A stretch of DNA of 40,842 nt from Cyclobacteriaceae bacterium (GTDB taxonomy: Bacteria; Bacteroidota; Bacteroidia; Cytophagales; Cyclobacteriaceae), in the NCBI GenBank assembly GCA_029881895.1, contig JAOULS010000004.1:1-40842 (forward strand). The letters are read 5' to 3'. Positions 4,981-26,900 of the stretch are shown piece by piece (position 1 is the stretch's first letter; each line of letters opens with the position of its first letter). The notes under the pieces were generated by a model. The model ran no database searches. It was not told the DNA's origin and saw nothing but the letters and a program-made list of their open reading frames with translations. The translations under genes and the position numbers were made by a program.

Positions 4981-5412
4981 TTACCTTTTAAAACCTAGTG
5001 CGCTTCCTCCGCAATAATTAGCTGAATTTTCAAAAGTATATGTGATGTAATAGATTCCTGTCGTGTTACAAGGGTAATTCATGCCACTTAAGTATTGACC
5101 ATTATATACACTAGTTCCTACTTTTTGACGTTTAGAGTCATATAATGTAACAACAATTCCATCTGTCGTTTCTCCTTCTGCACAAATATTTATCATATAT
5201 TGTGTCCCCTTGGTGAATACATAAGAGTACTCAACTTTAGACTTACCACCTCCGGCACCATCAATTTTATAACTCTTTAAAAAATTGAACCCAGAAGATA
5301 ATTTAGGAATACAGGTGTTTGTATATGTATCTGCATTGCATTGTGCATTTGCATTAACACTTACGAAACTCAACGCTGTTCCTAGGGTTAGTAAATAGAA
5401 TAATTTTTTCAT
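4981..5412 (-). CDS. Small secreted cysteine-containing protein, unknown function
   Basis: 143 residues with a clean Sec signal peptide: MKKLF start, hydrophobic core, cleavage after NANAQ near residue 24. The mature part is beta-rich with five cysteines (in QCN, TCI, ICA, PCN and YCGG), so disulfides are likely outside the cytoplasm. The sections YMINICAEGETTDGIVVTLYD and TGIYYITYTFE look like the PPC-type beta-sandwich found at the ends of secreted Bacteroidota proteins, but I do not recognise a named family. It lies 28 bp after the lipoprotein gene on the same strand and ends in the strong terminator, so it is probably the last gene of that unit. Confidence 0.75.
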   Translation of the reverse strand: MKKLFYLLTLGTALSFVSVNANAQCNADTYTNTCIPKLSSGFNFLKSYKIDGAGGGKSKVEYSYVFTKGTQYMINICAEGETTDGIVVTLYDSKRQKVGTSVYNGQYLSGMNYPCNTTGIYYITYTFENSANYCGGSALGFKR

Positions 5413-5440: not shown

Positions 5441-6349
5441 TTAGCTTATAATCTTACTTCTAATTTTAGCAGTAACATTTTTTATCTCTTCAACATTTGC
5501 ATCAGTAATATTTACATTACTTTCACTATTGTCATGAATTACCATTATACCATCAACGATTTCCATTGTTGACTCTTTATAGATAGTCGTAATTTCAATA
5601 GTATCAAAAGATGCTTGTAACTCTAAAATATCAATCATAAACGCTGCTATATCAGGAAATGATTCACTATAAAATGACAGTAATAGTACTATGTTTTCTA
5701 ATATAATTTTTTGTTCTCCTATTTTTTCCTGCAATTCTTTATTGCTAGGATTTTTTGAAGATACTTGACAGGTAATATGCATAGCTTCTAACCATCCTCC
5801 TGCTAATAGCAGCACACTTAAATGTGAACGATCTTGTTCTTGCAAGTAAGTGTTGATAGCATTGAAGTTTTGAGTAGTCACCAATAATAATGAATCTAAA
5901 TTATTACTATTGGTAGCTAATTTACCTATCGTTTCAATATCAAAAAATTGTCCAATATTTAACCCATCGGCCATGCTCTTAATAGAAGACATATAGTCTA
6001 ATCCATCTTGATTTTGTGCATAAATATTGGTGTAGCCTAAATCTGTTCCATAAATACCTAAATTAAGTGCCTTACTATAGTTACTATTATACTTAGAGGT
6101 ATTGTTTGAAGCATTTAATATGCTAATATCATATTTCGTGCCAGACTCTTTTAGTAATACTGAAATCTCTAAAGGAGAAGGTATGGACTCAATAATCGCT
6201 GAAATAACTTCTGGAGATATTTCAGGGCCTTTTGATTGAGTAGAATCTGCTGCTAATTGATTTTCAAAATCATCTTGAGCCTGTTCGTCCTTACTAGGCC
6301 CACATGCAGCAATGCTCAACACTATTATTCCTATTAATAATTTTTTCAT
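5441..6349 (-). CDS. Conserved lipoprotein of unknown function
   Basis: The start is set at the ATG at 6349 because it gives a textbook lipoprotein signal (MKKLLIGIIVLSIAAC, lipobox IAAC). The longer frame from a TTG at 6373 would bury that signal. The mature protein (about 285 residues) has an acidic, low-complexity tether (DEQAQDDFENQL) and then a mostly helical body with NLGIYGTDLGYTNIYAQNQ and LLLAGGWLEAMHI stretches. I associate this pattern with lipoproteins of unknown function in Cytophagales; that is recollection, not a search. It begins 93 bp after the ABC transporter stop. A role with that transporter is inference from position. Confidence 0.75.
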   Translation of the reverse strand: MKKLLIGIIVLSIAACGPSKDEQAQDDFENQLAADSTQSKGPEISPEVISAIIESIPSPLEISVLLKESGTKYDISILNASNNTSKYNSNYSKALNLGIYGTDLGYTNIYAQNQDGLDYMSSIKSMADGLNIGQFFDIETIGKLATNSNNLDSLLLVTTQNFNAINTYLQEQDRSHLSVLLLAGGWLEAMHITCQVSSKNPSNKELQEKIGEQKIILENIVLLLSFYSESFPDIAAFMIDILELQASFDTIEITTIYKESTMEIVDGIMVIHDNSESNVNITDANVEEIKNVTAKIRSKIIS

Positions 6350-6393
6350 ATACTTTTTGTTAACCATAAACAAAATTAAAAATTCATTTAAGT

Positions 6394-6442: not shown

Positions 6443-9400
6443 TTATTCTTTCTTTTTAAAGAATTTAACTTTATCGAATGAAGATAAGAATTTTCTTAGT
6501 AATTCGAAATACAATGTTATGTAGAAAATTAATGTCATCATCCATATTACAGCTAAATTAAACCCATAAGTATCAAAATATTGACCCCCTATATGTTTTA
6601 CTGGTGCGAAAAAATGTGTTCTGTAATCAAGGAAATGATTTGGGTTATCTGGATCATGATAAATAGGATCAATTTGTTGTAACAATTTGCCCTTATACTC
6701 GATTATTCGATCTTTTACACTTATGTTTCTCACAAAATCAGATAAGCTTTCGCTATAGTATTTGTTTTTATACTCATTTAAATTATAATCTCCAGATTTC
6801 TCTTTAAATAAAACGAATTTTTCTCTTGTATTAACTGCTTCATTGTAAGCATTTAAATATGTTTTTCTCAGTGCATCAAAGTAATTGGTGATAATCGTAT
6901 TAATAGAAGCATTGTATACTTCAATACTTAATGCTTTATCAATATCAATATCTTCTAGCCCAACTCTGAATTCTTCTTTGCTAATCTCTTCTTTTATGAT
7001 GTTTAAATCTTTTATTATAATCTGTTTAATCGAGTCACTTTCGGTGTCAATATTATCCAAAACATACTGATTTTTCTTTTTTAATTCTTTAATCAAATAG
7101 GACGATTTATAATCGGCTTGTAATTCTTGCTTCTCGTATTTGTAATATGGTTTAGAAAAATCATTTTCTTTGAATTGGTAAACAGCCATTGCTTCATAAG
7201 CCCATCTTGAAGCCATAAAATCAGCTACAATTGGCACTTTTCCTTTCGTGCTGATGATGTTGTTTAGTTTATCAAAACTAAAAAGCAATCCACTTAAAAT
7301 CATTTGGGGAATAAGAAGAAGTGGTATTATTACATAGACTGTAACCGCAGAATTGAAAGCGGATGATATATTTAACCCTATTACGTTCGACATACATGAA
7401 ACTGAAAATAGCACGAGCCAAAAGCTAAAAGTCATTCCATGAATTTCTAGTATTAGATTACCAATCAATACAAACATAAATGTTTGTATGGCAGACATTG
7501 TGAACAGGATTAATAATTTTGAAAACAAATAACTGTTCCAACTTAGGTTTAAGAAAGATTCTCTTTTAAGTATCTTCCTATCTCGAATAATTTCCTCTGC
7601 ACTTACCGTTAGTCCCATAAATAAAGCTACAACAATACTCATCAGCATAAAAGCGGGAATATTTTCGTTAAATCGAAAGATATATTCGTCTCCAGATGGT
7701 GAACTTTTATATCGAATAATAAATGCTAATATTATTGCGAGTAGGGGGGCTTCTAATAAGTTTATTAATAGGTATTGTTTGTTACTGAGCTTAGATAGGG
7801 TGTCTCTAATCGTAAATATTATAGTTTGCTTTAGTTTAGATGGGATGTTTAAAGACTGAGGAGGAGCTTCCTTTACATCTTCAATTTTTTCTATTTTAAA
7901 CTTGTCTAGATATTGTTCGTTCCATTGTGGAGGACTAATCTTTCTCTTATTGGTAAGTTGTCCGTATTCGTCAACAACTTTGGCTTCAATTATATTAAAA
8001 ATCTGTTCTGGATTTACATTTCCACACGTTTCGCATTGTCCCCTTTGGCTATCTACTTGATGAGTAGCTTCTTTGAAATGCGTAACAGCATGTATTGGAT
8101 TGCCATAAAAAATAGGATATCCACCAGTATCCATAATATACATCTTGTCAAACATTTTGTAGATGTCTGATGATGGTTGATGTATAACTACAAATATTAA
8201 TTTTCCTTTGAGAGAAAGTTCTTTTAATAAATCAATAACATTTTCAGAATCCCTAGATGATAAACCTGATGTTGGCTCATCTACAAACATAATAGCAGGT
8301 TCCCTTATTAGTTCTAGTGCAATATTTAATCGCTTCCTTTGTCCACCACTGATTGTTTTATCTAAAATACTTCCTACTTTAAGATTTTTTCGTTGATCTA
8401 ACCCCAAACTAGTAAGAACATTCATTACACGTTCATCCAGTTCTTTTTCTGACATGCTCGCAAAACATAGTTTGGCATTGTAATAGAGGTTCTCATATAC
8501 GGTTAACTCTTCTATAAGAAGGTCATCTTGAGCAATGTATCCTATTACTCCTTGTACTTTGTCTTCTTGTGTGTGAATGTTAAAGCCATTAATGAGTAGT
8601 TCACCCTCAGTAGGTTTTTCAATACCTGCAAGAACATTTAATAAGGTGGTTTTTCCAGCACCACTAGCCCCCATTATACCTATAAGTTTACCAGGACCTT
8701 CTGAAATATTTACATCTCTAAGACCAATGCCTCCATTTGGAAATTTAAATACAATGTTATTAGCATTAAAAGAAATGTTGCTAACTTTTAAATCAGATAT
8801 AAAGTGAATTATAAGGTCGCTGTAGTAAAGAGCACCTCCAGAAGGTGTTTTTACGGTACTACCTTGTGAAAATAAATATACGCGATTGGTAAGCATTATG
8901 AAGCCATTCATTACAATTTCATTGCTGCCCAAATACTTCACGAAGTACATGTCTACAGTCTTTAGCCTCATGAAAATTAGATTACCATCTAATTCTGCCT
9001 GAAAGTGTTTCGCCTTATTTATTTCAATGGGCAATCCTGCTTCATCAGTTTCTATTTTCTCATCTTCATTGATATTCTTTGTTTCAACTTCATTTTTATT
9101 TACTAATAAAATGTCGTCATATTGAAGTTTTTCGGTGTCTTCTTGTAATACAAAGCTTTCAATAAGTTTATACTCGTCTTTTATTATATTAAATACCGAT
9201 GAGATGGTATCAATAATTCCCATTCGTTGAGGAGTGAAATTTTTATCAGAACCAACAAGTTCAAGAATTTTCACCAACACAACCACTTTTTGTTTTTGAG
9301 TGAGTGTTTTATTAATTTTTTTACAAAGCCCTAAAGTTTTTACTGAATCCCTTACAGATGTGAGTTTTCTTTTCTTTTTGGGAGCTTCTTCTTCATTTTT

Positions 9401-9610
9401 GTTTCCTTCAGTTTCTTCTTCTTTTTCTCCTTCTTTTTTATAGTCTACATACTTATCATATAGTTCAAGATATTCTTTTACAGAATCTTGATCTAACTCT
9501 TGTTGAAAGAAGTCAATAACAAATTGTCTTTCTTTTTCAGTAACACCACCATCTTGTTTAGTGATAATTCCAAATAGTTGTGTTAGGGCTTTAAGTATTT
9601 CCTCACTCAT
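6443..9610 (-). CDS. TerB-domain ABCG-type ABC half-transporter
   Basis: A 1055-residue fusion. Residues 1-155 are helical and TerB-like (ITKQDGGVTEKERQFVIDFF and a second similar helix set), interrupted by a Lys/Glu-rich linker. Residues 200-290 are beta-rich. The ATPase has Walker A GASGAGKTT (about 314-322), signature SGGQRKRLNIALEL (421-434), Walker B IMFVDE and switch His477. Next come a CETCGNVNPEQ segment with a CxxC pair (526/529) and an ABC2-type membrane domain (from about 610) with around six spans. About 220 polar residues (roughly 800-1020) sit before the last span. ATPase-before-membrane order and the large final loop are ABCG-like, suggesting export. It lies 62 bp downstream of siaC on the same strand. 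The substrate is unknown. Confidence 0.9.
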   Translation of the reverse strand: MSEEILKALTQLFGIITKQDGGVTEKERQFVIDFFQQELDQDSVKEYLELYDKYVDYKKEGEKEEETEGNKNEEEAPKKKRKLTSVRDSVKTLGLCKKINKTLTQKQKVVVLVKILELVGSDKNFTPQRMGIIDTISSVFNIIKDEYKLIESFVLQEDTEKLQYDDILLVNKNEVETKNINEDEKIETDEAGLPIEINKAKHFQAELDGNLIFMRLKTVDMYFVKYLGSNEIVMNGFIMLTNRVYLFSQGSTVKTPSGGALYYSDLIIHFISDLKVSNISFNANNIVFKFPNGGIGLRDVNISEGPGKLIGIMGASGAGKTTLLNVLAGIEKPTEGELLINGFNIHTQEDKVQGVIGYIAQDDLLIEELTVYENLYYNAKLCFASMSEKELDERVMNVLTSLGLDQRKNLKVGSILDKTISGGQRKRLNIALELIREPAIMFVDEPTSGLSSRDSENVIDLLKELSLKGKLIFVVIHQPSSDIYKMFDKMYIMDTGGYPIFYGNPIHAVTHFKEATHQVDSQRGQCETCGNVNPEQIFNIIEAKVVDEYGQLTNKRKISPPQWNEQYLDKFKIEKIEDVKEAPPQSLNIPSKLKQTIIFTIRDTLSKLSNKQYLLINLLEAPLLAIILAFIIRYKSSPSGDEYIFRFNENIPAFMLMSIVVALFMGLTVSAEEIIRDRKILKRESFLNLSWNSYLFSKLLILFTMSAIQTFMFVLIGNLILEIHGMTFSFWLVLFSVSCMSNVIGLNISSAFNSAVTVYVIIPLLLIPQMILSGLLFSFDKLNNIISTKGKVPIVADFMASRWAYEAMAVYQFKENDFSKPYYKYEKQELQADYKSSYLIKELKKKNQYVLDNIDTESDSIKQIIIKDLNIIKEEISKEEFRVGLEDIDIDKALSIEVYNASINTIITNYFDALRKTYLNAYNEAVNTREKFVLFKEKSGDYNLNEYKNKYYSESLSDFVRNISVKDRIIEYKGKLLQQIDPIYHDPDNPNHFLDYRTHFFAPVKHIGGQYFDTYGFNLAVIWMMTLIFYITLYFELLRKFLSSFDKVKFFKKKE

Positions 9611-9659
9611 ATAGTAGTACCTATAGGTTGCTTAAAAAATAAAGATGAAGCAATAAAAA

Positions 9660-9682
9660 ATTAGTATGTTAATTAGTATGTT
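9660..9682. repeat. 11-nt tandem direct repeat across the siaC stop
   Basis: ATTAGTATGTT occurs at 9660-9670 and 9672-9682. It spans the siaC stop codon and the start of the siaC-ABC spacer. A local duplication by slippage is the simplest explanation. Confidence 0.4.
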
Positions 9683-10035
9683 TTAAATTCAAATGGAATT
9701 TCAACTAGTTCAGAAAATTCTTCACCAGCTTCCTCCATATCTTCATCGTCTTCATGAAAATACCAAATTATTTTGCATCCTTCAACATCTTCAAGCGCTG
9801 AAAGAACATCTAAAATTAATTTTGAAGATGCTGTGTTAAAATACTCTAATTTAAAAACAAACTCAGTCTCAGCGTTAGGACTTGAATTGTATTCTTCAAT
9901 CCAGTCTAAAACAGGTTGATAGAATTCTGCCGAATCTTCAGGTAGAGATCTTCCTGATATTTCATATATTTCATTTCCTTTGTCTAAGATTATTTTTGGG
10001 GTATCTTCAGCTCCTTCCAGATTTAAAATTTCCAT
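9673..10035 (-). CDS. siaC: SiaC-family regulatory phosphoprotein (DUF1987)
   Basis: 120 residues, the full length of the SiaC/DUF1987 family. In Pseudomonas aeruginosa, SiaC is phosphorylated on Thr68 by SiaB and dephosphorylated by SiaA, and the unphosphorylated form activates the diguanylate cyclase SiaD. Here the family core LEYFNTASSK is intact and its threonine is residue 68 by direct count. Other family marks are GRSLPEDSAEFYQPVLDWIEEY and IIWYFHEDDEDM. No diguanylate cyclase is present in the window, so the partner must be something else or elsewhere. It lies 39 bp after siaB and 62 bp before the ABC transporter gene. The symbol reflects family membership, not proven function. Confidence 0.92.
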   Translation of the reverse strand: MEILNLEGAEDTPKIILDKGNEIYEISGRSLPEDSAEFYQPVLDWIEEYNSSPNAETEFVFKLEYFNTASSKLILDVLSALEDVEGCKIIWYFHEDDEDMEEAGEEFSELVEIPFEFKTY

Positions 10036-10074
10036 ATCGGTTGTAATTTTTTATAGTTAATATCAGTAATAATG

Positions 10075-10611
10075 TTATTGTCTTTTAATACAAGATTTTA
10101 GAGAGAAAAAAGAATATCCATTTTCCATTTTTTCAAAATCATATTCTAATTTTTGTCCAGATTTACGTGCCATGTCCACAAATCCTAGTCCTGCACCACC
10201 TTTTTCAGAGATTTCGGTAGTTTTTATAATGTTTTTATAAAGTTGTTTTAACCCATCTCTATCCAAGGTGTTGATTTCGTCAATTTTATCTTTTACGATC
10301 GAGATAAATTCATCTTTAATAGGGTTTCCAGATATGATAGTATACTGTTCATCATGTTTTCCAATCATAAAGACAGCATTATGATTTGGGTTATTATTTA
10401 ATTGATCAGCATGTCTCACCACATTTTGAAGGCATTCTACCATTACGTTGAATACTTTCCTTTTTATGGCTGATTCTTCTCCCGAAGAATCCATGTTACG
10501 TTCAGCCATGGATAAAACCGATTTTGTAATTTCTTGAGTAAACTCTCCTTCGTACACCAAAATCAGGTCATGATTTACCATGCTTTTGTGCAATTCATAG
10601 ATATATTTCAT
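10075..10611 (-). CDS. siaB: SiaB-family GHKL protein kinase (DUF6272)
   Basis: A 178-residue anti-sigma-factor-type GHKL kinase. The N box is VECLQNVVRHA (Glu59, Asn63, His67), which holds Mg-ATP and the catalytic base in this fold. The G2-type loop is GGAGLGF (138-144), and ISGNP (about 93-97) sits where the usual DNG motif would be. It should phosphorylate the neighbouring SiaC homologue on Thr68, opposed by the phosphatase encoded upstream. Gene order phosphatase-kinase-SiaC matches siaA-siaB-siaC in Pseudomonas. An 84-bp spacer with a small hairpin separates it from the phosphatase gene. Confidence 0.88.
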   Translation of the reverse strand: MKYIYELHKSMVNHDLILVYEGEFTQEITKSVLSMAERNMDSSGEESAIKRKVFNVMVECLQNVVRHADQLNNNPNHNAVFMIGKHDEQYTIISGNPIKDEFISIVKDKIDEINTLDRDGLKQLYKNIIKTTEISEKGGAGLGFVDMARKSGQKLEYDFEKMENGYSFFSLKSCIKRQ

Positions 10612-10661
10612 GAGTTGGCATTTTTATTTATTATTCAATTATTTAAAAGTATTAACAATAA

Positions 10662-10681
10662 CATTGGAAATCAAACCAATG
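10662..10681. repeat. Intercistronic inverted repeat between phosphatase and siaB
   Basis: CATTGG (10662-10667) and CCAATG (10676-10681) pair across an 8-nt loop. No T run follows on the minus strand, so it looks more like an mRNA processing or stability hairpin than a terminator. It could adjust the level of siaB-siaC message relative to the phosphatase. Confidence 0.35.
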
Positions 10682-10695
10682 CTTAATTTCCTAAG

Positions 10696-13600
10696 TTAAA
10701 ATTTTATCCCGATTAATAATACATCATCAGTTTGTTTTTCTTCACCTTGCCATCCAAACCATTGCTTTTCAAATTCTTCTGAAGCTTCACGCATTGATTT
10801 CTCGTGTACATCGTGAATAATTTGTCTCGTTCGTTTTGGTCCAAATTTCCTATTCTCGGGACCTCCAAATTGGTCAGGAAATCCATCAGAACAGAAGTAT
10901 ATAGAGTCACCTTTCTTTAAAGATAATTTAGTGTTCGTGAAATTGGTCTGATTTTTATAAATACCTCCGCCAATGGCAAATTTATTTCCTTTAATCTCCT
11001 CCATTTCATGATTTTTCATCACGTATAATGGACGGTGAGCACCAGCGTATTCTACAGTTCGATTTTCAGTATTTATTTTACAAAGGGCGATATCCATTCC
11101 GTCTTTTGTTTTAGAATCGTCCTGATCTTGTCGGAGAGTAGTAGTGACACCTTCATCTAATTGATCAAGAATTATTCCTGGGTCGCTTATTTTTCTACTT
11201 CTAACGATATCGTTTAATAGGAAATACCCAATTAATGATAAGAGTGCACCAGGAACGCCATGACCTGTACAATCGACAGCAGCAATATATATATCTTCAC
11301 CTACTCGAACATACCAAGGGAAATCACCACTAACAACGTCTTTAGGTTTGTAAAAAATAAATGAGTCTGGTAGTGTACGATTAATAATATTGGTGTTAGG
11401 TAATATAGCTCCTTGAATACGTTTAGCGTAGTTTATACTGTCATTAATTTTTTTGTTCTTGTTTTGAACCTCTAGTTCGATTAACTTTCTTTCTGTAATA
11501 TCATGAGAAACTACTAAGACAGATTCTAGATTTTTTAATTCGTCAAATTCAGGTATAGCATTTACATGCATGATACGCTTTCCTTCTTCAGAAATGAAAT
11601 CTATTTCATCAACAATATTTTCATTAGTATTTTTTACATTTTCTATTATCTCTAACCATTGATCAATAATTGATTTATTTATATCTGTATCAACTAAGTT
11701 TTTATTTAAATATCGTTCAGGCTTTTTACCAGTAATCTTCTCAATAACTGGGTTTATGTATGAAATAGGGCCGTCATTTTCTAGTCTAGTAATTAAATCA
11801 GGAGAATTTTCCGATAGCGCTTGCATTTTACTACGCATTCTTTGTTCTTGTTCTGCTCTCCTTCTTTCTGTAATGTCAGTTGAATTAACAATCATGCCAT
11901 GGATGGCAGGGTTTGACATAAAGTTAGTTCCCGTTGATTCAATCCAGATAGGCTTCCCTGATTTAGTTTTATATTCATACTGGACGGTAACTTGTTCATA
12001 GGGGTTGTCCAATAATTGTTTAAACATATCTTTTACAATAGGGACGTATTCAGGAAGAACAAAATCAATATCTTTTGTGTCAATAAGTTCATTCTGGCTG
12101 TATCCTAAAATGGGTTCTACAGAAGGACTTATATAGCGAATAGTCTCATCTTCTTCATATATTGTAATTACCTCAGAAGCATTTTCTAATAGCAACTGCA
12201 TTCTTTTTTGTGTACGATTAACCTCTTCAATCTGTTCTTCTAGTTGAGCATTAGAACGCGTTAATTCTTCTTGAGTAGCTTGCATTTCTTCGGCATTTTG
12301 ACGCAGAACTTCTTGTTTTTCTTGAAGTTCAGTACTCATGGTTTGTGATTCTTCTAAAAGGATTTTAGTGCGATCATTTACCTTCATATTAAAGACGGTA
12401 CGCGCTAGAATTAAACTCAGTTCCTCTACAAACTTTATTTGAACATCAGAAAACCGTTTGAAGCCTGCAAATTCAAGTACACCATAAACTTTTTCGTTTG
12501 TAATAAGGGGTACTATGAGAATACATGTGGGTTTTTGATCACCCAAAATACCTGAAGTGAGTGTTACGTAATCGTTTGGTATTTCGGTTCTAATAATAGT
12601 GTCCTGCTCTACTGCAGCTTGCCCAACAAGCCCTTCTGCAAATTTAAAATCTTTTTGAATGTATTTTTTTCTATTGTAAGCATAGCTTGATTTTAAAGAG
12701 ATGACACCATGTTCATCAAAAAGATCATCATCCTCTTCTACTATATATAATGCTCCTTGTATGGCCTCTATTTTCTTGATGATGAATTTCAGAACATCAT
12801 CTCCTAAATCTTCTAAGTTGTTATGAATACGTAGTATTTCTCCAATTTCGGCTACACCAGTAACAATCCAATTTCGTTCGTTATCTCGTTTTTCGGCCTC
12901 TACTAAATTGTCTCTCATCGTAATCAACGATAATCCTAGCGCATCATTTTCTCCTAAAGGCTTGAATTTAGCATCAAAATCACCAGTACCTATTTGGTTG
13001 GCAAACCCAGCAGTCCTTTTTAATGCATGTACTAAATGGTTTACAGTAGATGCCATTTGACCTACTTCATCGTTTGATTTTAATTTCACCTCTCCTGGTA
13101 AAATACCTTGTCCAACTAAATCGAGAGTACTTTTCAATACTTGTACAGGAGCTACAAGCATTTTTGAAAATAAAATAGAAATAAAGGATGTTATTAAGGC
13201 TATAAATAGTCCTGAAAACAGGAATTTTAAAAGAAGAGTTTCAATCTCAGAATATACTTCTTCTTGATTAATTTTGGTTACTAATCCCCAATTCAACTTG
13301 GGAATGCTTCTCCAAGCAGCAAGTATTGGTACTCCATTATAGTCAAATTCTTTACCTGCAAAATTCTTCCCTTCAATAGCAAGTTGAATAGGAGTAGCGT
13401 TAGCTAAATTATTTTCCCATTTCTTAGGACTAAGAATTTCATTATTATTATTTCTTAGTGGGTTAAGATAAATTATTCGTGTACCACTTGGATCTTGAGT
13501 GCCTAACACAACTTCTCCACTATTCCCTAACCCTGTATAATCTTGTAAAATATTATACATCGTGCTTATTTTAAATTTAATAAACACAAGTCCTATAGTT

Positions 13601-14226
13601 ACGTCAAAATTATCTTTAATAGGTGTTCCGTTTATTATATAAAATTCGTTCTCTTCTATAAAAGTACTACTATAAATTAAGCTATCATTTGCAAGGCTAA
13701 CAAACTCTTTTGTAGGAGTAGGGTATATGTTTTTTTCTTTTTTTATATCAGTTGAAAATAAGGTTAATCCATCTGGGTCTGTAATTGCGATATCTGTATA
13801 TTCAAAAGCATTATTTACATCATTAATGTATATTTTTAAATCATCTTCAGTAGATGATGATAAGAAAAAATCCATTGCATCATCTCCTCCTTGACTGGAT
13901 AGTGAAGCACCAAATGGATCACCACTTCCAAAAGGATCCATTGCGGATGAATTTGAAGTAGTTTCAGACGAATTTACATTTATAACAGCATTTTTCACTA
14001 ATTCTGAAGATGCGATTAAGTGTGCGTTTTTATCAATTTGAGTTACATATGAGTTGATCTTATCTACTCGAATATTGGCAAGAACATTCAAGTTATCATC
14101 TTGCCTTCGTTCAATAGATTTTTTACTTAGATTGTAGGTTAAATAACTTATGGTAGCTACAGTTATAAGTACTATTGTAATTACTACAGCAGTTATTTTT
14201 GTCCCTATTTTTATATTTCTAAACAT
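10696..14226 (-). CDS. SiaA-like sensor PP2C/SpoIIE phosphatase (dCache-HAMP-GAF-PAS-PAS)
   Basis: An 1176-residue membrane sensor phosphatase. Order: TM 8-30, extracytoplasmic sensor about 31-332 (Cache-like, with YTDIAITDPDGLTLFST and WGLVTKI), TM 333-355, HAMP about 356-410, GAF 455-612, coiled coil 615-680, PAS 675-790 and 800-915, SpoIIE/PP2C 950-1176. Metal-binding acids are seen in VSGDF (Asp968), AAVDCTGHGVPGA (Asp985), KDGMDIAL, CSDGFPDQFGG (Asp1114) and the final TDDVLLIG, so the phosphatase should be active. The expected substrate is phospho-SiaC. The architecture is richer than Pseudomonas SiaA, which lacks the GAF and PAS pair. Residues 85-116 are a Ser/Gly-rich insertion with two DPFG copies. 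The 26-bp gap to the upstream GAF gene suggests cotranscription. Confidence 0.92.
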   Translation of the reverse strand: MFRNIKIGTKITAVVITIVLITVATISYLTYNLSKKSIERRQDDNLNVLANIRVDKINSYVTQIDKNAHLIASSELVKNAVINVNSSETTSNSSAMDPFGSGDPFGASLSSQGGDDAMDFFLSSSTEDDLKIYINDVNNAFEYTDIAITDPDGLTLFSTDIKKEKNIYPTPTKEFVSLANDSLIYSSTFIEENEFYIINGTPIKDNFDVTIGLVFIKFKISTMYNILQDYTGLGNSGEVVLGTQDPSGTRIIYLNPLRNNNNEILSPKKWENNLANATPIQLAIEGKNFAGKEFDYNGVPILAAWRSIPKLNWGLVTKINQEEVYSEIETLLLKFLFSGLFIALITSFISILFSKMLVAPVQVLKSTLDLVGQGILPGEVKLKSNDEVGQMASTVNHLVHALKRTAGFANQIGTGDFDAKFKPLGENDALGLSLITMRDNLVEAEKRDNERNWIVTGVAEIGEILRIHNNLEDLGDDVLKFIIKKIEAIQGALYIVEEDDDLFDEHGVISLKSSYAYNRKKYIQKDFKFAEGLVGQAAVEQDTIIRTEIPNDYVTLTSGILGDQKPTCILIVPLITNEKVYGVLEFAGFKRFSDVQIKFVEELSLILARTVFNMKVNDRTKILLEESQTMSTELQEKQEVLRQNAEEMQATQEELTRSNAQLEEQIEEVNRTQKRMQLLLENASEVITIYEEDETIRYISPSVEPILGYSQNELIDTKDIDFVLPEYVPIVKDMFKQLLDNPYEQVTVQYEYKTKSGKPIWIESTGTNFMSNPAIHGMIVNSTDITERRRAEQEQRMRSKMQALSENSPDLITRLENDGPISYINPVIEKITGKKPERYLNKNLVDTDINKSIIDQWLEIIENVKNTNENIVDEIDFISEEGKRIMHVNAIPEFDELKNLESVLVVSHDITERKLIELEVQNKNKKINDSINYAKRIQGAILPNTNIINRTLPDSFIFYKPKDVVSGDFPWYVRVGEDIYIAAVDCTGHGVPGALLSLIGYFLLNDIVRSRKISDPGIILDQLDEGVTTTLRQDQDDSKTKDGMDIALCKINTENRTVEYAGAHRPLYVMKNHEMEEIKGNKFAIGGGIYKNQTNFTNTKLSLKKGDSIYFCSDGFPDQFGGPENRKFGPKRTRQIIHDVHEKSMREASEEFEKQWFGWQGEEKQTDDVLLIGIKF

Positions 14227-14252
14227 GATTCAATTTAAATATTGGTTCAGTT

Positions 14253-15140
14253 TTATTTTTTATTTTTTATTTCGCCTAACTCCTTAGCTTTTTCTTGGTC
14301 TTTTTTTGTTTGACTAGTTGCTTTAGTTTTTTTACCTTCTCCAGAAGGGGAAACAACAAGAAGGTTGAAACTTTCTTTTATTAAGTTAACACTTTCTTTT
14401 GAAAATTCAGTAAAAGATGCTAATTCAATAACAGCTTCAATCATTTTTCCTTTATATAAAGGCATAATAAGCAAATGTTTTGGTGATGCTTTTCCTAAAC
14501 CTGAAATTATGTTTATGTAATTTTCAGGTATTTCATCTATTATTAAAGTGTCTCCTTCTTTTGCAACCTGTCCAATGAGTCCTTCTCCATACTCAAATTT
14601 AATAGTTTCACTTTCGGCAATACTAAAAGCATAGCCAACATAAAATTCAACAAATCGGATTCCTTTAATTTCTTTTGGAACATAAACTGCACCTTGTCCT
14701 ATTTCTAATTTTTTGCAAATGGCAGTTAAAGTAATACTGAATTTATCCTTTTTGTCTTTAGTGTCTTTCAAGGCTACTTTTATAAATTCTGTATCGGTTG
14801 TAGATTTTTCTATATCTGTTTCAGCTTCTGTTTCAGTTTCTCGTCCTTCTGCTTTATTTACGTTTTTACTTGAATTATCCGCTATATGATTTTCATTTAG
14901 TAGATGATTAGATTTGAATCCTAATATTAAAACAATAATTCCAGAAAGGATTACCGTGCCAACAGCAATATATAATTGAAATAATACGGGTGACAATAAA
15001 GATGCTTGGCTTGAATCTAAAACTGTTGAACTTAAAATCAAGTCGTCTTGTAAGCTAAAAAGTCTTAGCGTAGTGTAGATAATGCTGATAATGAACAGTA
15101 TCGTGAATAAATAGTTGATGTTTTTGTTTTTATCGCTCAT
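14253..15140 (-). CDS. Membrane-anchored GAF-domain protein
   Basis: 295 residues. Two hydrophobic spans (about 9-26 and 51-73) enclose a short external loop. An acidic/Thr-rich linker (about 90-120) follows, then a GAF domain (about 120-268) and a Lys-rich tail. The GAF core EFYVGYAFSIAESETIKFEY / GEGLIGQVAKEGDTLIIDEIP is visibly related to those in the phosphatase downstream and the sensor at 16733-19081, so the three probably read the same kind of signal. It has no output domain. It starts 8 bp after cheB and ends 26 bp before the phosphatase gene. An accessory sensor or partner of the phosphatase is my inference. Confidence 0.8.
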   Translation of the reverse strand: MSDKNKNINYLFTILFIISIIYTTLRLFSLQDDLILSSTVLDSSQASLLSPVLFQLYIAVGTVILSGIIVLILGFKSNHLLNENHIADNSSKNVNKAEGRETETEAETDIEKSTTDTEFIKVALKDTKDKKDKFSITLTAICKKLEIGQGAVYVPKEIKGIRFVEFYVGYAFSIAESETIKFEYGEGLIGQVAKEGDTLIIDEIPENYINIISGLGKASPKHLLIMPLYKGKMIEAVIELASFTEFSKESVNLIKESFNLLVVSPSGEGKKTKATSQTKKDQEKAKELGEIKNKK

Positions 15141-15148
15141 ACTTACAA

Positions 15149-15742
15149 TTATTTATAATGCGAATTTAATTCATTTAAAAAAGAGATAATCTCATTTACT
15201 TTCATAACATAATCAATTTCAGTAACATTTATGGCAGCCGATGGCATGGTGTCAATCATACATTCTTTTGGGTCTTGTACTATGGTCATACCGCCTTTAT
15301 TTTTTATATTCTTCATACCTAAAGCACCATCTTTATTTGCTCCAGAAAGTAAAATGCCAATCAATTTATCTCTATACACATATCCAGAAGTGCCTAAGGT
15401 AATGTCAATAGCTGGTCGGGAGTTATTGACCATATCTTCCGTAGATAGACTGAAATAATTCCCTAATTCAATAGACATATGGTAATTAGATGGTGCTAAA
15501 TACACTTTTCCTTTTTTAATCGGTTCTTTGTCATATGGCTCTGTTACGGAAATCACACTTTTAAGTGATAACGCTTCAACAAACCCGTTTCTAACATGTT
15601 TTAGTCGATGTAAGCACATGATGATAGGGATGTTGAAATCGGGTGATATGCTTGATAGAATTCTAGTTATACCTTGAAAACTACCTGCTGATCCACCAAT
15701 TACTATGGCCTTGTATCTATTGCTTAAATCGTATTTGTTCAT
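15149..15742 (-). CDS. cheB: CheB methylesterase catalytic domain without receiver
   Basis: 197 residues covering only the CheB esterase/amidase domain. The triad is visible: Ser18 in IGGSAGS, His45 in CLHRLKH and Asp138 in GANKDGA. RPAIDITL, KGKVYLAPSNYHM and MPSAAI are family signatures. The usual N-terminal response-regulator domain is absent, so it cannot be switched by CheA phosphorylation. It would remove methyl groups, or deamidate, glutamyl/glutaminyl residues of a receptor, but no chemoreceptor gene is visible here. It follows cheR by 31 bp and precedes the GAF gene by 8 bp, clearly one unit. Confidence 0.9.
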   Translation of the reverse strand: MNKYDLSNRYKAIVIGGSAGSFQGITRILSSISPDFNIPIIMCLHRLKHVRNGFVEALSLKSVISVTEPYDKEPIKKGKVYLAPSNYHMSIELGNYFSLSTEDMVNNSRPAIDITLGTSGYVYRDKLIGILLSGANKDGALGMKNIKNKGGMTIVQDPKECMIDTMPSAAINVTEIDYVMKVNEIISFLNELNSHYK

Positions 15743-15773
15743 TTTATGGAATCACTAAAAAATAGTGGAAATC

Positions 15774-16598
15774 TTAATCCTTAAACTTTTTGTAAATTTT
15801 TTCTTCATTATTCACAACTATAAATTTATTTGCGATATCACACCATATCAATGATTCCTTTGATCCTATAATTAAGTATCCAAACTTGAATAAACTCTCA
15901 TGGAATTTTTTTAGTACTTCGTTTTGTAAAGATTGATTGAAGTAGATCATTACATTTCGACAAAGAACAAGGTCAAACTTATTGAACACTTCTCCTTTTA
16001 CTAAGTCATGTTCTCGAAAAGACACATTTTCAACTAAAGAAGGATCCATTACAGCAACTCCTTTTTGTTCGGAATAATAATCTTTTAATGAAGAATTTCC
16101 TTGAAACCGGATATAGTTTTTTTCATTTAATTCCATGTTTTTCAGTGAATATTTCCCTGACTTTGCCCGCTTTAATATTTCTTTATCTAAATCTGTTGCT
16201 ATTAATTGAGAATTCTGAAGTACTCCTAGTTCCCTTAACATAATTGCCATTGAAAAAACTTCTTCTCCTGAAGAACATCCTGCATGCCAAATTCTAATTT
16301 TATCATGATTTAACATGATTGCAGGGATAATGTCATCTCTTAAAACCCTCCAAAATGAAGGGTCGCGAAACATTTCTGTCACGTTAACCGTTATTTCCAC
16401 AAGAAATTCTTCAAAAAAAGAAGCATCATCAGAAAGTCTTTTTATTAGAGCGTCAACAGAACTTATTTTAAAATAATCTAGAATCCGTTGAATTCGTCTT
16501 TTAAAAGAGGACATAGCATAATTGGTAAAATCGTAATTGTACTTCCTTTTTACTACTTCAGCAATTTTTTTTATGTCTGCAATTTCGATATCCGCCAT
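15774..16598 (-). CDS. cheR: CheR-family protein-glutamate methyltransferase
   Basis: 274 residues, the normal CheR length. An N-terminal helical CheR_N part (1-70, with the FLVEITVNVTEMFRDPSFW link) is followed by the SAM-binding domain: IRIWHAGCSSGEEVFSMAI (about 101-119), an LIATDLD acidic strand, and VLCRNVMIYFN (catalytic-domain signature). It has no TPR or CheW extension and lacks a recognisable tetrapeptide partner site in the window. It should methylate glutamates on a sensor coiled coil using SAM. It is paired with cheB 31 bp downstream. A 134-bp spacer separates it from the sensor gene upstream, so a promoter may lie there. Confidence 0.92.
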   Translation of the reverse strand: MADIEIADIKKIAEVVKRKYNYDFTNYAMSSFKRRIQRILDYFKISSVDALIKRLSDDASFFEEFLVEITVNVTEMFRDPSFWRVLRDDIIPAIMLNHDKIRIWHAGCSSGEEVFSMAIMLRELGVLQNSQLIATDLDKEILKRAKSGKYSLKNMELNEKNYIRFQGNSSLKDYYSEQKGVAVMDPSLVENVSFREHDLVKGEVFNKFDLVLCRNVMIYFNQSLQNEVLKKFHESLFKFGYLIIGSKESLIWCDIANKFIVVNNEEKIYKKFKD

Positions 16599-16732
16599 AT
16601 TCTTATGATTGTAAATCCATGTCCATCAACTTCACCAGTATATTTATTTTATAAAGATAGTATACTAATGGGTTATTAAGATAATAACTAATTAATTATT
16701 TAACCGATTTATATTTAAAAATTAATAAAAAA

Positions 16733-19081
16733 TTATTTATAAGATATAATTATTGTCTGTTTTGATCCCTTTATAGGAATTACTTTTAATTTTAATTCAT
16801 CATTTTTTGTGTTCGTTACGCTGATATTTATCTCGACCCCATTAATAATAGCTTCTTTGATTTTTGTAATTGAGTCTGTATCTAAGATTTTATTCAAAGA
16901 TGAAATTTGGTTTGAAACGGCTAGTTCATTAAACGTATTTTTTAATGCTTGAGTAGCGAAAATAATTTCTAATTCTTCTATTAAACCAATTCCCATTGCT
17001 TCATCAATTATGTTAAAATAATTGATTTTATTTAGAATTACTTCTTCTGTTAATTGTAGTGATTCTACATTTTGTTGTAATTCTTCTTCTAAATCAGATA
17101 GATTTTTTTCATTTGTAGAAGGCGGAATGTTATCTGCTGGATGAGCAAAAAACAAAACTCGGTCATATCCTTTATCCATTGATTTTGCTGGTGTCATTAC
17201 TATATTGAGTAACACTTTGTTTATATAGAACACCCCTTGAATAATTTTTCCATTTTTTAAATCAGAAAAATAGTCAATTGGTAAGTTCTCTTTGTTATGG
17301 GAAACAATAAGTTGAGAAATGTTTTGACCGATAAGGTCTTCCACGTTATTGTACCCAGTATATTTTAGTAATTCAATATTAGCATTGATCACATTAGTTT
17401 CAATAGATAGTTCAGCGGTAGCAAAAGTTGTTTCCAATGCAGAAACAATCATTTGATTATGTTGATTATTTTCAGTGTCATTTTCTGAGGAAGTAGAAAG
17501 GTCTTCTAATATATATTGACGCATTTCCTCTTCTTGAGATTTCATTCGTTCTGTTAATTTTTGTGCATTGTCTAGAAGTAGTTGCGTGTTTTCATTATTC
17601 CTTACGTTTGAAATAGCAGAAGCAATCATTTCTCCAAGTTGTTCTATAAACTCTATCTTATAAGATTCTATTTCATTGAATGATGCTAATTCTATTACGC
17701 CAAAAGCTTCATCGTTAACAATTAGAGGTACGATAAGTATAGCGTGCGGATTAATACTGCCAAGTCCAGATTTTAATTTCATGTACTCTTCAGGTATCTC
17801 AAGAAGATAGGTGGTTTTTCTTTCAAGAAATGTTTGTCCTACTAACCCTTCACCAAGCAATATTTTTTCTTTATGAAATTTCTCAATATTGAAGGCATAA
17901 TATGCGCTTAAGCTTAAATAGGGAGTATCTGTTTCATCTTTATTCAGGATATACATACATCCTTGATTTGTGTTTAGGTATTCGACAATCGAAGACATAA
18001 TTACACTGCTCAATTTTTCAATATTCGAGTTATTATTTCGAATAATATTGGCAAATTTTGCTACTCCTTGAGTAGCCCAATTTCGTTTTTCATCTTTATT
18101 AGTTATTGCTTTCAGCTTATCTCTCATAGAAATAAGCGCATGAGCTAGGCTAGTTTTGTTTATTTCTGTTGCATTAACTCCTTGAAAGTTACTTTCAAGG
18201 TTTCCTTCCCCAATTTGATGCACAAATTCAGATGAATTTTGTAAATACGTAGCCATAACATTAATGGCCGATGTTATTGTTCCTATTTCATCATTATTGG
18301 TATAATCAATACGAGCATTTATATCTCCTTTAGCAACTAATTGTGCTTGTTTGCCAACTGATTGTATAGGTTTGACCACCTTAGTTTTTATCCAGATATA
18401 TGAAAATCCAAATATGAATATGTTTATGACACCTAAAACTAGAAATGAGATGTTATATGTTGAATAACTGTCTTCTATTTTTATAATAATGTTGTTCAAC
18501 ACCTTTTCGTTAACTTTTCTAAGTTTATCTACTGATGAGGAAGCTATTTTTATGGCTTCTTTCATTTTAGAGTTGTTAACTAATATTGTTTTTGTAATTG
18601 ATATACGTTGAGTTGTTGAATCATTCATCAAGATAACCCTGTCTTCATTAAATGATGAATCCATTTTTTGAGGAAGGTTTTGGATAATAGTAAGGTTTGA
18701 TGAGCATGTTTTCCAGACAGAATCAACCTCCTTAAAGTCTTTTGATTCATTTCCAGTTAATGGATTTATTTTTTCAGTAAAGTAGGTGGTATTACCGCCA
18801 TAAAGTATTGAAGAAATGTTTGTATTAATCTCTTTTTCTAGATTTATTAGCTCTTCTTTTGAATCGAAAATATTTCTTTCAAAAATAGTATTAAAATGTT
18901 CGTTTATAAGGACTACTTGATTTTGAAGATGATGAACAGCGCTTAGCTGAGATAATGTTTTTTTTGTGTTATTATGCAAATAGTGGAGTATAGCTCCGCT
19001 AAATAGAGCTGATAAAAGGAATAAGAAGATAATGAAATAAATGCGTTCCCTGATAGTGGGGTTCTTCAAATTCAGTTTCAT
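16733..19081 (-). CDS. HAMP-GAF-PAS membrane sensor without output domain
   Basis: 782 residues. TM 13-33, a helical extracytoplasmic region about 34-210, TM 211-231, HAMP 232-285, a HAMP-like continuation, GAF about 345-492, coiled coil 495-525 (MKSQEEEMRQYI), PAS about 545-645, and a weaker PAS-like end 690-780. No histidine kinase, cyclase, phosphatase or MCP signalling tip is present. From HAMP through GAF it aligns by eye with the phosphatase at 10696-14226 (ISMRDKL...RNWATQGVAKF against ITMRDNL...RNWIVTGVAEI). It probably passes a signal by protein contact, and may be the substrate of the adjacent CheR/CheB pair (inference). Confidence 0.85.
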   Translation of the reverse strand: MKLNLKNPTIRERIYFIIFLFLLSALFSGAILHYLHNNTKKTLSQLSAVHHLQNQVVLINEHFNTIFERNIFDSKEELINLEKEINTNISSILYGGNTTYFTEKINPLTGNESKDFKEVDSVWKTCSSNLTIIQNLPQKMDSSFNEDRVILMNDSTTQRISITKTILVNNSKMKEAIKIASSSVDKLRKVNEKVLNNIIIKIEDSYSTYNISFLVLGVINIFIFGFSYIWIKTKVVKPIQSVGKQAQLVAKGDINARIDYTNNDEIGTITSAINVMATYLQNSSEFVHQIGEGNLESNFQGVNATEINKTSLAHALISMRDKLKAITNKDEKRNWATQGVAKFANIIRNNNSNIEKLSSVIMSSIVEYLNTNQGCMYILNKDETDTPYLSLSAYYAFNIEKFHKEKILLGEGLVGQTFLERKTTYLLEIPEEYMKLKSGLGSINPHAILIVPLIVNDEAFGVIELASFNEIESYKIEFIEQLGEMIASAISNVRNNENTQLLLDNAQKLTERMKSQEEEMRQYILEDLSTSSENDTENNQHNQMIVSALETTFATAELSIETNVINANIELLKYTGYNNVEDLIGQNISQLIVSHNKENLPIDYFSDLKNGKIIQGVFYINKVLLNIVMTPAKSMDKGYDRVLFFAHPADNIPPSTNEKNLSDLEEELQQNVESLQLTEEVILNKINYFNIIDEAMGIGLIEELEIIFATQALKNTFNELAVSNQISSLNKILDTDSITKIKEAIINGVEINISVTNTKNDELKLKVIPIKGSKQTIIISYK

Positions 19082-23949: not shown

Positions 23950-26900
23950 TTATTCCATTCCTATCATAATGAAAGATCCCCAGTAAATTGGTTCATGATA
24001 TTCATTTCTAACTTCTTTTTTTGCATTGATAAATGATTGTCTCATTTGCCCTGTTTCGAGCCATTTTTGATAGAAACTAACCATGAGTTTTTGAGTAGCA
24101 GCATCATCTACTTTAAACATACTCATAATTAGTGATTTTGCACCAGCAACAAGAAATGCACGTTGTAAACCATATACTCCTTCACCTACCTGTAAATCTC
24201 CTAACCCTGTTTCGCAAGCACTCAATACTACCAATTCTGTTCTGTCAAGGTTTAGGTTCATGGCTTCATAAGCAGTAAGTATTCCACTGTTAGTATTGTA
24301 ATTTAGTTTAGTTTTGTCTAGAATATCTCCAGCACCTGTAAGAAGTAACCCAGTTCTGAGAAGAGGGTTGTCAAATGTTTTATTACGATTAACATTTAAA
24401 CTGTTTTTTTGTGCTAGCATGTCATCTGAACCTCTGAAAAATCCATGGGTGGCGATATGGAAAACTTTTGGGCTATCAATTAATTTCAGTTGCTCTTCTC
24501 TTGCGCTTACATCCATGTAATCTTGTGCTATCCATCCTTTTCGAAGTAATAAGTCTTTTAGTTCGTCAATTTCTTTTTTTGTGCCAGGTAAATTAGCAAT
24601 CTGATTCGATGCATTTGCACTTAAATAAAAATCAGGGTTTCCAAACATAAGAATTCGGTTTTCGTTCTTTTCTTGAGCAGCTTTGTTCTTATTTATATAT
24701 ACATCTTTGGTATTACTTACTAAAATAATATTAGAGTCATCTAAAACATATTTGTTATCAGAAGTAGGGATCGTTTCTAAATTGATTTGGTTATATACAC
24801 CATCGGAGGATAAATATATGGTAGCATTATTTCCTGCTATATTTTTTATTGGTTCCCAATATGCTTCTTTAGAATATCGATCTTCGATTTTATAAATAAT
24901 GCTATTTCGATACGATTTAAAGTATTTATTTTCCAAATCTTTACCATTAGTAATTAGAGAAACACTAGGGCGAGGTGTGCCTTTTTGGTTTTTCAAATAC
25001 AGGACTGCATAGATTACTGAATCGGTAAATACATGATTAAAATGCCTGAAACGAATCATTTCTATTGCTACTTCATTAGGCCCTAATGACTCACGAATAC
25101 TTTCCCATGTAATTTGAGAGTCATCTGATTTAAAGGCATCGGACTTCTGACTTAATTCTTTTTCCAATAACTCTACTTCTCTTGCTAATTGGGATGGGTT
25201 AATGTTATTTTCAGTAAGCTGTTCACTGTTCATGGAAAGTGCCTGTGTAAGTAAGTCCTTATTTGATAACCATTTCTCATAGTTTTCAATTAACTCCTTA
25301 TCCCCACTGGTCATAATGTTCTGACGAATTTTGATGGATGAGCTTAGCAGTAATGCTTTAGTAGTAAGCGCATTATTGTATACTTTTTCCATTAATTTTT
25401 TATTTTCAGTAGTTTGGCTTAGCGCAAGTGTGTTAAAAAATTCGAAATCTTGTTTTATCGTATTCCAGAATTTAGTTTTTTCTCGTTCACTCAATGAAGG
25501 GAAATAATTTTTTATAAATAAATTATAATTGTCTATGGCTTCATTAATTGTGTTTTCAGCCTTGTTGGTTTCACCCTTCATGTAATATACTTTACTAAGC
25601 TTTGAAATTACTTTTATATAATCAGGATGTTTATCACTAAAAAATTTCTCGTAAAGTGTTTTTGCTTTTCCATAATACTCTTCTGCTCTATCATAGCTGT
25701 ATTGATGATAGTATAAGTCTCCAGTAAGCACATATATTTCAGCTGCATTAATATTATTGCGCTTTCCTACTTTCGAGATCCAAATTTTCTCTGATAATTC
25801 TAATGAATTGAAAGCTTCGTTATATTTTTTTTGTGCAATTTCTATTGAAGCAAGATCTTTAAGGCCTACAGCGTACATAGGGTTGCTTTTACCCAAGGAC
25901 TGTGCAATAATTGAGACTGATTCTCTTAATAATCTCTCAGATTTATCATTAAAACCTCCTTGATAATATAGAATTAAACCTTTCTGTGCTATGGATCTTG
26001 CTACTTCAATGTGATTTCTTCCGAATGCAGTCTCTTGAATAGGAATGGCTTTTGAAATGTATTCGTAAGCCTTGTCGTAATCGCCTAATGTTGTTGTTAA
26101 CTCGGCTAATAGGATGTATGTTGAAGCAGTTTTTGTGGAATTTTCCCCATATATTGATAGGGCTAAATTATTGACTCTTCTAGTTATTTTTTCAGCTTCT
26201 GTATAATCTCCAGTAATTAGTTTTAATTTCCCATAGTTAGTTAATGGACGAATAATGTTTCTGGATTCTTTTCCGTATAATTTTTGATAGGTATTGATGA
26301 CATTTAACAGTATTTTTTCAGTAGCAGAATATTTGCCAAGGGCAATATCTAAATAGGCGAGTTCTTCCTGAGAAGAAAGCTCGTTGTAGCCCACTTTATC
26401 ATCTGTTTTTCGCAAAAGTTTTTGTGCGGCACTAATGTGGTTTTCTGCCTCTTCAAAGTCACCTTTAATTGCTTCAAGTTTTGCTTTTGTTTCTAATGCT
26501 TTTATATAGTGAATTATGTCATTGTCATTTTTTCTATGGTCTATCAAGATAGACATGGCGTTCTTAATGTATTCTTCAGCTTCTTGATATTCACCAATAT
26601 TAATTTTTAAATTAGCAATTTTATCTAGTTCAATACCGTAAGCGATGTCAGTATTTTGATATTTGGTTTGGGCGGCAATTAAAGCATCTTTTAGTGTTTC
26701 AGAAGCCTTTTTGTAGTCGTCATTTTGTTCGAAATAAAGGGCCATGTGATTTAATATGTCAATATAATCTACATGTTTTATGTCAATTTCTTTTTCTATT
26801 ATTCCTTCAAAACTTGTGTTATATATCTCGCCAGCTTCTTTAAATTTACTTGTAAAATCAAGATAAAAATTAGCCAGTTTTATTTTTGAAAGATGAAATT

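Follow-up and report, generated by a model that had tools for sequence, protein, structure and literature searches.

A SiaABC-type partner switch with an ABC exporter as its putative output in the Cytophagales

What does a SiaC protein act upon when no SiaD accompanies it? In Pseudomonas aeruginosa, according to the accessible parts of two reports (PMC8457831; PMC7647112), phosphorylation of SiaC at Thr68 controls its binding to the output protein encoded beside it. The question is raised by a locus in a stretch of 40,842 nucleotides (hereafter the window) from a Cyclobacteriaceae bacterium (GCA_029881895.1, contig JAOULS010000004.1), the genome of which comprises 2.85 Mb in 312 contigs and is 90.16% complete. 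An original prediction, made from the sequence alone, described eight genes between positions 6443 and 19081 as a SiaABC-type switch without SiaD that is linked to CheR, CheB and an ATP-binding cassette (ABC) exporter, and suggested that SiaC or phospho-SiaC gates this exporter or an unlinked target. Open reading frames (ORFs) and matches to Pfam and NCBIfam confirm the order, strand and coordinates of these genes, all of which are located on the minus strand in the order HAMP-GAF sensor, CheR, CheB, membrane GAF protein, SiaA-like phosphatase, SiaB, SiaC and exporter (Table 1). The genes were in essence correctly assigned, but the proposed end at position 6443 was not: the conserved unit continues on the same strand with a lipoprotein gene (to 5441) and a gene for a small secreted protein (to 4981), here called lip310 and p143. 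By its family models the system is a SiaABC-type switch. It is not the SiaABCD pathway, because no GGDEF domain was found and the cut-offs of the NCBIfam equivalog models were not reached (215 of 700 bits for SiaA, 86.9 of 225 for SiaB and 77.3 of 150 for SiaC).

A profile search of the whole window genome for GGDEF (PF00990) gave no match, as the original prediction had stated for the locus, although a missed gene is possible in a genome that is 90.16% complete. Likewise, within the family only 6 of 148 genomes yielded a GGDEF domain, which exceeded the cut-off in 5, and within genus g18 only 1 of 58 did, one that still has SiaB; the same search was positive in 8 of 14 control genomes. SiaC-family proteins, on the other hand, are present in 100 of the 148 family genomes, and since SiaC is common and GGDEF rare, the output of SiaC in this family has so far been unexplained. 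The type of output described in P. aeruginosa appears to be unavailable here.

The comparison of gene order around DUF1987 genes in the Cytophagales, which the original prediction had proposed, showed that the linkage of siaC to the exporter is conserved. Among 404 confirmed loci, the best 80 by similarity to SiaC have the exporter after siaC in 79 cases (the exception being L120), and SiaB directly before SiaC in all 80. Because this set is biased by its ranking, a second ranking by the exporter was added; in the best 30 loci, SiaC is immediately upstream in 29 of the 29 that remain when the window itself is set aside, with one gap of 1.2 kb. Furthermore, in an order-wide survey of 291 genomes, in which the counts refer to the exporter rows entered, SiaC is immediately upstream in 94 of the 110 rows with an identity of at least 51%, and in none of the 24 rows at 50% or below. 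The genomes with linked genes span 14 families. SiaC at 57% or above was found in 107 of the 291 genomes and the exporter at 51% or above in 105, with both in 101. In the SiaC-ranked set, lip310 is located behind the exporter in 75 loci and p143 in 74, with misses at L120 and at five loci that are cut by contig ends. The linkage between siaC and the exporter is not due to chance.

The exporter combines on one chain a nucleotide-binding domain (NBD; PF00005, 109.9 bits) and then a membrane domain (ABC2_membrane, PF01061, 63.8 bits), both over the cut-off, and the motifs checked in the ABC domain are satisfied in 71-75 of 75 orthologous ORFs. Its best NCBIfam match, TIGR00955, scores 260.7 bits against a cut-off of 736, and the exporter is therefore not a member of that named subfamily. 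The cytoplasmic head (residues 1-290) was modeled with AlphaFold2 from 61 sequences, with a predicted local distance difference test (pLDDT) score of 85.4. The TerB-like domain of the original prediction is weak in Pfam (E 0.00064, below the cut-off) and is supported in the model by fold matches of residues 3-155 to 2h5n (Z 8.8) and 2ou3 (Z 8.3), scores near 8 being modest for a helical domain. An FHA fold at residues ~163-270 had been overlooked. FHA chains account for most of the 50 rows of matches, at middling Z scores of 5.7-7.5 (below 8); Foldseek gave a probability of about 1 with E values of 0.03 or worse, and none at 0.001, while a profile search, which is independent of the model, matched the FHA domain of Mek1 (E 0.015).

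Exporters of this TerB-FHA-ABC family, for which we found no description in the open-access literature, often have several paralogs per genome (L142-L161, L202-L241). A tree with 60 further exporters assigned 3 to the clade that is linked to SiaC and left 57 outside it, such that the exporters adjoining SiaC form a single clade separate from the 57 paralogs. None of these paralogs has SiaC adjacent in the stretch read, which for many was a flank of only 1.2 kb, and a gene for a lip310-like lipoprotein is located immediately upstream in 28 of the 57. This indicates that the exporter and the lipoprotein constitute an older module and that SiaC belongs to one of the paralogs. Moreover, genomes of two unrelated groups each have two copies of the SiaC-exporter pair (G316 and G338; G427 and G440, and likewise G426, where an ORF of 152 residues separates SiaC from the exporter in one of the copies).

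The presence and absence of the two genes are correlated in genus g18. Of its 58 genomes, 37 contain both SiaC and the exporter, 14 neither, 3 only SiaC and 4 only the exporter (Fisher 1.6e-7, not corrected for relatedness); for the 43 genomes that are at least 90% complete, the corresponding numbers are 32, 8, 1 and 2 (Fisher 2.7e-6). No match to the SiaB family was obtained in 13 of the 58 genomes with both SiaC and the exporter (10 of the 43 most complete). In 16 of 20 loci in this genus, SiaC has diverged and is 38-55% identical to the window SiaC. No matches to CheR, CheB, SiaA or SiaB were found beside SiaC in these 16 loci, and yet the usual flanking genes are directly upstream in 15 and the exporter is adjacent in 14 (the exceptions being G442 and G456). 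A SiaB-family match is absent from 12 of the 16 genomes, and in the other four it was found only in a second cluster. Thus, SiaC is the only member of the six-gene signaling block that the kinase-less lineages retain next to the exporter.

These diverged SiaC proteins are intact and under purifying selection, with a ratio of nonsynonymous to synonymous substitution rates (dN/dS) of ~0.1 in the closest pairs. The mean ratio of nonsynonymous to synonymous differences (pN/pS) is 0.40 in the diverged proteins (105 pairs, many near saturation) as compared to 0.05 in the canonical ones (6 pairs). The parts lost include large portions of the N terminus and of the KLEYFNTASSKLI stretch, and what is retained is mostly the alpha-3 segment (W91, DEDM, E102, G104, E106, L110 and PFxF), plus scattered residues. 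Taken together, the kinase-less and the duplicated pairs suggest that SiaC has a function that is tied to the exporter and that does not require phosphorylation.

We lean toward the hypothesis that this is a SiaABC partner switch that has the ABC exporter as its output, through a putative binding of SiaC. The SiaA phosphatase and the SiaB kinase would set the phosphorylation of Thr68 in SiaC, and CheR and CheB probably tune the sensor. Unphosphorylated SiaC, a STAS-like protein, might then bind directly to the cytoplasmic side of the exporter and alter its activity or assembly, and phosphorylation would release it; activation of the exporter by SiaC is the simpler guess. The proposed polarity is borrowed from two known systems. 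The accessible text of PMC8457831 reports that binding of SiaC to SiaD is blocked by phosphorylation of T68 and that the alpha-3 and Thr68 regions of SiaC contact SiaD. In Escherichia coli, as described in the parts of PMC7367683 that are accessible, MlaF, an ABC ATPase, is held by the STAS protein MlaB through an interface that has Thr52 close to its center, and a T52E substitution weakens the binding; phosphorylation of MlaB was not shown in these parts and remained a proposal of the MlaFB authors. Outside the inner membrane, the exporter may be assisted by the lipoprotein and the secreted protein as likely partners or cargo handlers, and the combination of a kinase, a phosphatase, a methyltransferase and a methylesterase would provide multi-input control. 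In a broader form, the hypothesis would state that a Ser/Thr partner switch directly targets the exporter widely in the Cytophagales, and that one genus has discarded the kinase and the phosphatase, kept the gate protein as a constitutive partner and sometimes erased the phosphosite. On this broader claim we are evenly divided.

Several observations weigh against this reading, both at loci where SiaC and the exporter part and in the search for a contact between them. SiaC is not immediately upstream in 16 of the 110 exporter rows mentioned above; some of these are at contig ends and two (G036 and G107) are paralogs according to the exporter tree, while G165, G166, G208 and G223 represent real separations. 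Twenty loci were fetched, several of them picked because they seemed unlinked, and eight of these keep the exporter, the lipoprotein and the secreted protein in the absence of the CheR-to-SiaC block (with only 0.55 kb upstream in G134). Likewise, G425 and G462 have the exporter without SiaC, the latter with no match to p143, which gives a total of ten inspected loci, at least four of them in genomes without a SiaC match (G006, G056, G425 and G462). Since the flanking genes remain in G006, G128, G080, G056, G116, G425 and G462, the block is absent as a unit. SiaC has also been kept where the exporter has decayed (G442) or been deleted (G456), and in G436 (L311) a canonical CheR-to-SiaC cluster is followed by an ORF of 154 residues and no exporter. 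Furthermore, since other SiaC copies have other neighbors, the SiaC family as a whole is not exporter-specific. The L311 genome has an exporter with a diverged SiaC on another contig.

The tests for a docking site were not successful. In a first pass, positions conserved in the SiaC-linked exporters and not in the paralogs were concentrated in TerB, where they made up 24 of 62 conserved positions, in a set that included one non-ABC protein. However, the TerB domain is equally constrained in paralog clade T3, which is without SiaC, and the test of TerB conservation therefore does not single out SiaC. The relaxation of TerB in eight SiaC-less exporters is inconsistent (z -2.7 to +0.4), with the three lowest falling in the transmembrane domain too. 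Changes in exporters that are paired with a diverged SiaC are weakly enriched in TerB, with 4 of 62 positions as compared to 1 of 130 in the NBD (p 0.04). Judging from these sequence comparisons, TerB as a docking site for SiaC is not established. The original suggestion that SiaC gates the exporter is partly supported, by the failure to find a SiaD, the conserved linkage, the shared presence and absence and the persistence of the pair without a SiaB match. Neither of the two outcomes named in advance as refuting it, a SiaD homolog elsewhere that binds this SiaC or a linkage that is not conserved in relatives, was observed.

A motif at exporter residues 82-95 that by eye seemed to resemble the LTSVSDRL motif of SiaD-like stalks was considered and rejected, as it was the top match to five stalk segments in 0 of 104 exporters. 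In the window exporter, the best stretch scored 16.4 as compared to a shuffled mean of 15.7 and a 95th percentile of 21.0, which also counts against a stalk-like contact. A pattern of the LTSVxD type, exact in 73 of 105 linked exporters, was likewise dropped; a close form of it persists in the SiaC-less G006.

The alternative that best survives is that of co-regulation only, in which the protein targeted by SiaC is unlinked to the locus and the exporter gene simply belongs to the downstream part of the same operon. We consider this possible but unlikely. It would readily accommodate the exporters without SiaC and the SiaC proteins without an intact exporter, and five other SiaC systems, in which siaC is followed by the gene for a membrane protein with a coiled coil and a VSDRL motif, indicate that targets other than the exporter may exist. 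Moreover, the conserved neighborhood includes genes without an obvious role in the pathway (labeled SDR and cdd by reading). Mere co-regulation is, however, difficult to reconcile with the loss of every member of the signaling block except SiaC from beside the exporter in the kinase-less lineages, with the pairing of SiaC to a single exporter paralog or with the joint duplication of the pair. In addition, a search of five kinase-less genomes recovered no stalk protein that could be an alternative target, and the sole g18 genome with a GGDEF domain is not kinase-less.

Another possibility, which we judge to be distinctly improbable, is that SiaC is a stable subunit for assembly or stability, similar to MlaB, with phosphorylation as a minor layer. 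The residue at position 68 is of interest here: in the diverged SiaC proteins without an adjacent kinase it is Thr in 12 of 15 and Ile in the other 3 (G361, G434 and G436), and such retention of Thr68 fits a residue that also serves an interface. In line with this, MlaB T52A is reported as non-functional in the accessible part of PMC7367683. Unlike an obligate subunit, however, SiaC is absent from beside the exporter in the ten loci described above, and it therefore looks more like a regulator; the SiaB gene directly before it in each of the 80 SiaC-ranked loci also speaks against a minor role for phosphorylation. Under the preferred hypothesis of a partner switch acting on the exporter, the canonical loci would add a switch to a function of SiaC that is independent of phosphorylation.

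We also considered whether the exporter could recognize phospho-SiaC through its FHA domain, in the manner of Rv1747-type control. The FHA fold adjoins the NBD, and FHA I of Rv1747 in Mycobacterium tuberculosis is bound by Rv2623 through a phosphothreonine motif, according to the available portion of PMC5549992. Yet, of the residues expected in the phospho-binding half (Gly, Arg, Ser, His and Asn), no Arg or His is invariant or conserved at 90% in residues 160-225 of alignment A1, as judged by alignment and not by structural superposition, and for want of a conserved Arg or His we regard this FHA domain as degenerate. At matched NBD divergence, its conservation exceeds that in paralog clade T2, which is without SiaC, by a moderate degree at most and is below that in T3, and SiaC proteins with Ile68 have nevertheless been kept. 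A reading of phospho-SiaC by the FHA domain is thus very unlikely. Finally, the notion of a missed SiaD-type diguanylate cyclase and a usual SiaABCD pathway draws on the incompleteness of the window genome (only 90% complete) and is hardly credible given the scarcity of GGDEF domains in the family and the genus, by a search that recovered them in 8 of 14 controls.

A switch that acts on an ABC exporter would share features with several known systems, as these are described in the accessible parts of the cited reports. Like SiaABCD in P. aeruginosa, it has a PP2C sensor phosphatase, a SiaB kinase and a SiaC protein with Thr68, but SiaD and its GGDEF domain are lacking; instead, siaC is followed by the exporter, the lipoprotein and the secreted protein, and siaA is preceded by CheR, CheB and GAF proteins. 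The resemblance to MlaB-MlaF of E. coli lies in the small STAS-type protein, which in the Mla system has an interface Thr and acts on an ABC ATPase (PMC7367683), an action that is proposed here for SiaC. Unlike MlaFEDB, a multi-subunit transporter of phospholipids, the exporter consists of a single chain that includes TerB and FHA domains, and it can be kept without SiaC. In M. tuberculosis, Rv1747 is likewise an exporter in which FHA modules precede the NBD, and it is linked to the Ser/Thr kinase PknF (PMC5549992; PMC3908365), but Rv1747 has two FHA domains rather than one FHA and a TerB domain, the FHA domain here is without the phospho-binding residues, and control would run through SiaC. 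In the HsbA and BgrV partner switches, a STAS-domain partner controls the effector (PMC8457831), which in both is a diguanylate cyclase, unlike here.

The accessible text of PMC8457831 (eLife) suggests that modulation of adjacent proteins is common among DUF1987 proteins. We take the window locus to be a concrete and widespread case of such modulation with a new kind of neighbor; no report on a SiaC-ABC pairing or on DUF6272 was found in the open-access literature. The locus offers a defined target for SiaC-family proteins. If the hypothesis is correct, it would bring transport within the reach of partner switching, which is known for sigma factors and diguanylate cyclases, and would provide the phosphorylation step proposed by the MlaFB authors for STAS control of an ABC protein. 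The kinase-less SiaC-exporter pairs would then represent a natural control that separates binding from switching.

Table 1. Features of the conserved unit in the window, and coiled-coil genes that follow other siaC genes.
Feature	Coordinates	Strand	Evidence
HAMP-GAF membrane sensor	16733..19081	-	Pfam HAMP 42.9 bits, GAF_2 51.5 bits
CheR methyltransferase	15774..16598	-	Pfam CheR, CheR_N; upstream of SiaC in 72/80 loci
CheB methylesterase domain, without receiver domain	15149..15742	-	Pfam CheB_methylest 159.8 bits; 72/80 loci
Membrane-anchored GAF protein	14253..15140	-	GAF_2 27.3 bits, slightly below cut-off
SiaA-like sensor phosphatase	10696..14226	-	Extracytoplasmic sensor (weak dCache, below cut-off), HAMP 29.3 bits, GAF, two PAS, PP2C/SpoIIE 67.9 bits
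SiaB-family kinase (DUF6272)	10075..10611	-	PF19788 145.9 bits; NF038262 177.7 bits, cut-off 85; 80/80 loci
SiaC, STAS-like phosphoprotein, Thr68 in YFNTASSK	9673..10035	-	PF09345 127.8 bits, cut-off 24.5
TerB-FHA-NBD-transmembrane domain exporter, ABCG/White-type half-transporter	6443..9610	-	ABC_tran, ABC2_membrane, TerB and FHA folds
Exporter cytoplasmic head: TerB (residues 3-155), putatively degenerate FHA (~163-270)	8741..9610	-	AlphaFold2 model and PDB matches
Lipoprotein lip310	5441..6373	-	ORF called from TTG 6373; likely ATG start 6349
Small secreted protein p143, conserved cysteines	4981..5412	-	Match in 74/80 loci; alignment A3
Coiled-coil gene after another siaC	L283:8379-8915		
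Coiled-coil gene after another siaC	L284:8373-8915		
Coiled-coil gene after another siaC	L293:8381-8905		
Coiled-coil gene after another siaC	L294:8382-8891		
Coiled-coil gene after another siaC	L295:8387-8905		

The individual members of the unit differ in how well they are conserved. The first gene, encoding the HAMP-GAF sensor, is the least conserved member, and a separate copy upstream of CheR is found only in part of the loci. Of the HAMP-GAF-PAS architecture originally assigned to it, HAMP and GAF were recovered, whereas PAS is a sub-threshold match only (TIGR00229, E 0.0045). For the membrane GAF protein, a best-hit ORF was obtained at 71 of the 80 loci, and at some of them it may be a different GAF protein. 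The enzymes retain their motifs: SGEE is present in 71 of 71 orthologous CheR ORFs (68-71 of 71 for the CheR checks overall), GGSAG, LH and DG in 72 of 72 CheB ORFs, and SGDF, DCTGHG and DGMD in 72 of 72 SiaA ORFs (67-72 of 72 overall). SiaA is a membrane PP2C phosphatase with HAMP, and its SpoIIE and HAMP scores exceed the Pfam cut-offs. One SiaB pattern matches 75 of 80 loci and another, which is met in the window, 0 of 80, and was badly chosen. All 81 SiaC sequences compared are precisely 120 residues long and have T68. The lipobox cysteine of lip310 is conserved in at least 90% of alignment A2, and the protein is mostly helical with a four-stranded part; profile searches of Pfam and PDB and a fold search gave no credible match for it (no PDB fold match below E 0.4), nor did profile searches of Pfam and PDB for p143. 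The labels lysDH, cdd, SDR, est and nuc used for genes were assigned by reading the sequences only.

A coiled-coil helix before the first PAS domain of SiaA (positions 12172-12336, residues 631-685; QEVLRQNAEEMQATQEEL) is 86-93% conserved over 73 sequences and exceeds the first PAS domain in this respect. It is a possible target of CheR and CheB. The pattern is missing from many other families with CheR and CheB, and it is present in locus L188, where no CheR or CheB was seen.

A second SiaC/SiaB pair in the window genome is located on contig C87 (L282), where it adjoins two genes for POT/PTR2 peptide transporters; one such gene is found in L283. Another five SiaB-SiaC pairs, those of the coiled-coil genes in Table 1, have as their next gene one for a coiled-coil protein of 169-180 residues with the motif [SR]VSDRL[HQ] and without GGDEF. 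Two membrane stretches were seen by eye in the three that were read. The motif is close to residues R80-I-S-D-R-Y-Q86 in the SiaC-binding stalk of SiaD, and these proteins could represent a general type of SiaC target. In L185, a SiaA-SiaB-SiaC-CheB-CheR copy is present without an exporter, in a genome that also has another SiaC-exporter pair. Elsewhere in the window, three very large adjacent ORFs (1432, 1070 and 591 residues) are located on the minus strand between positions 23950 and 33238.

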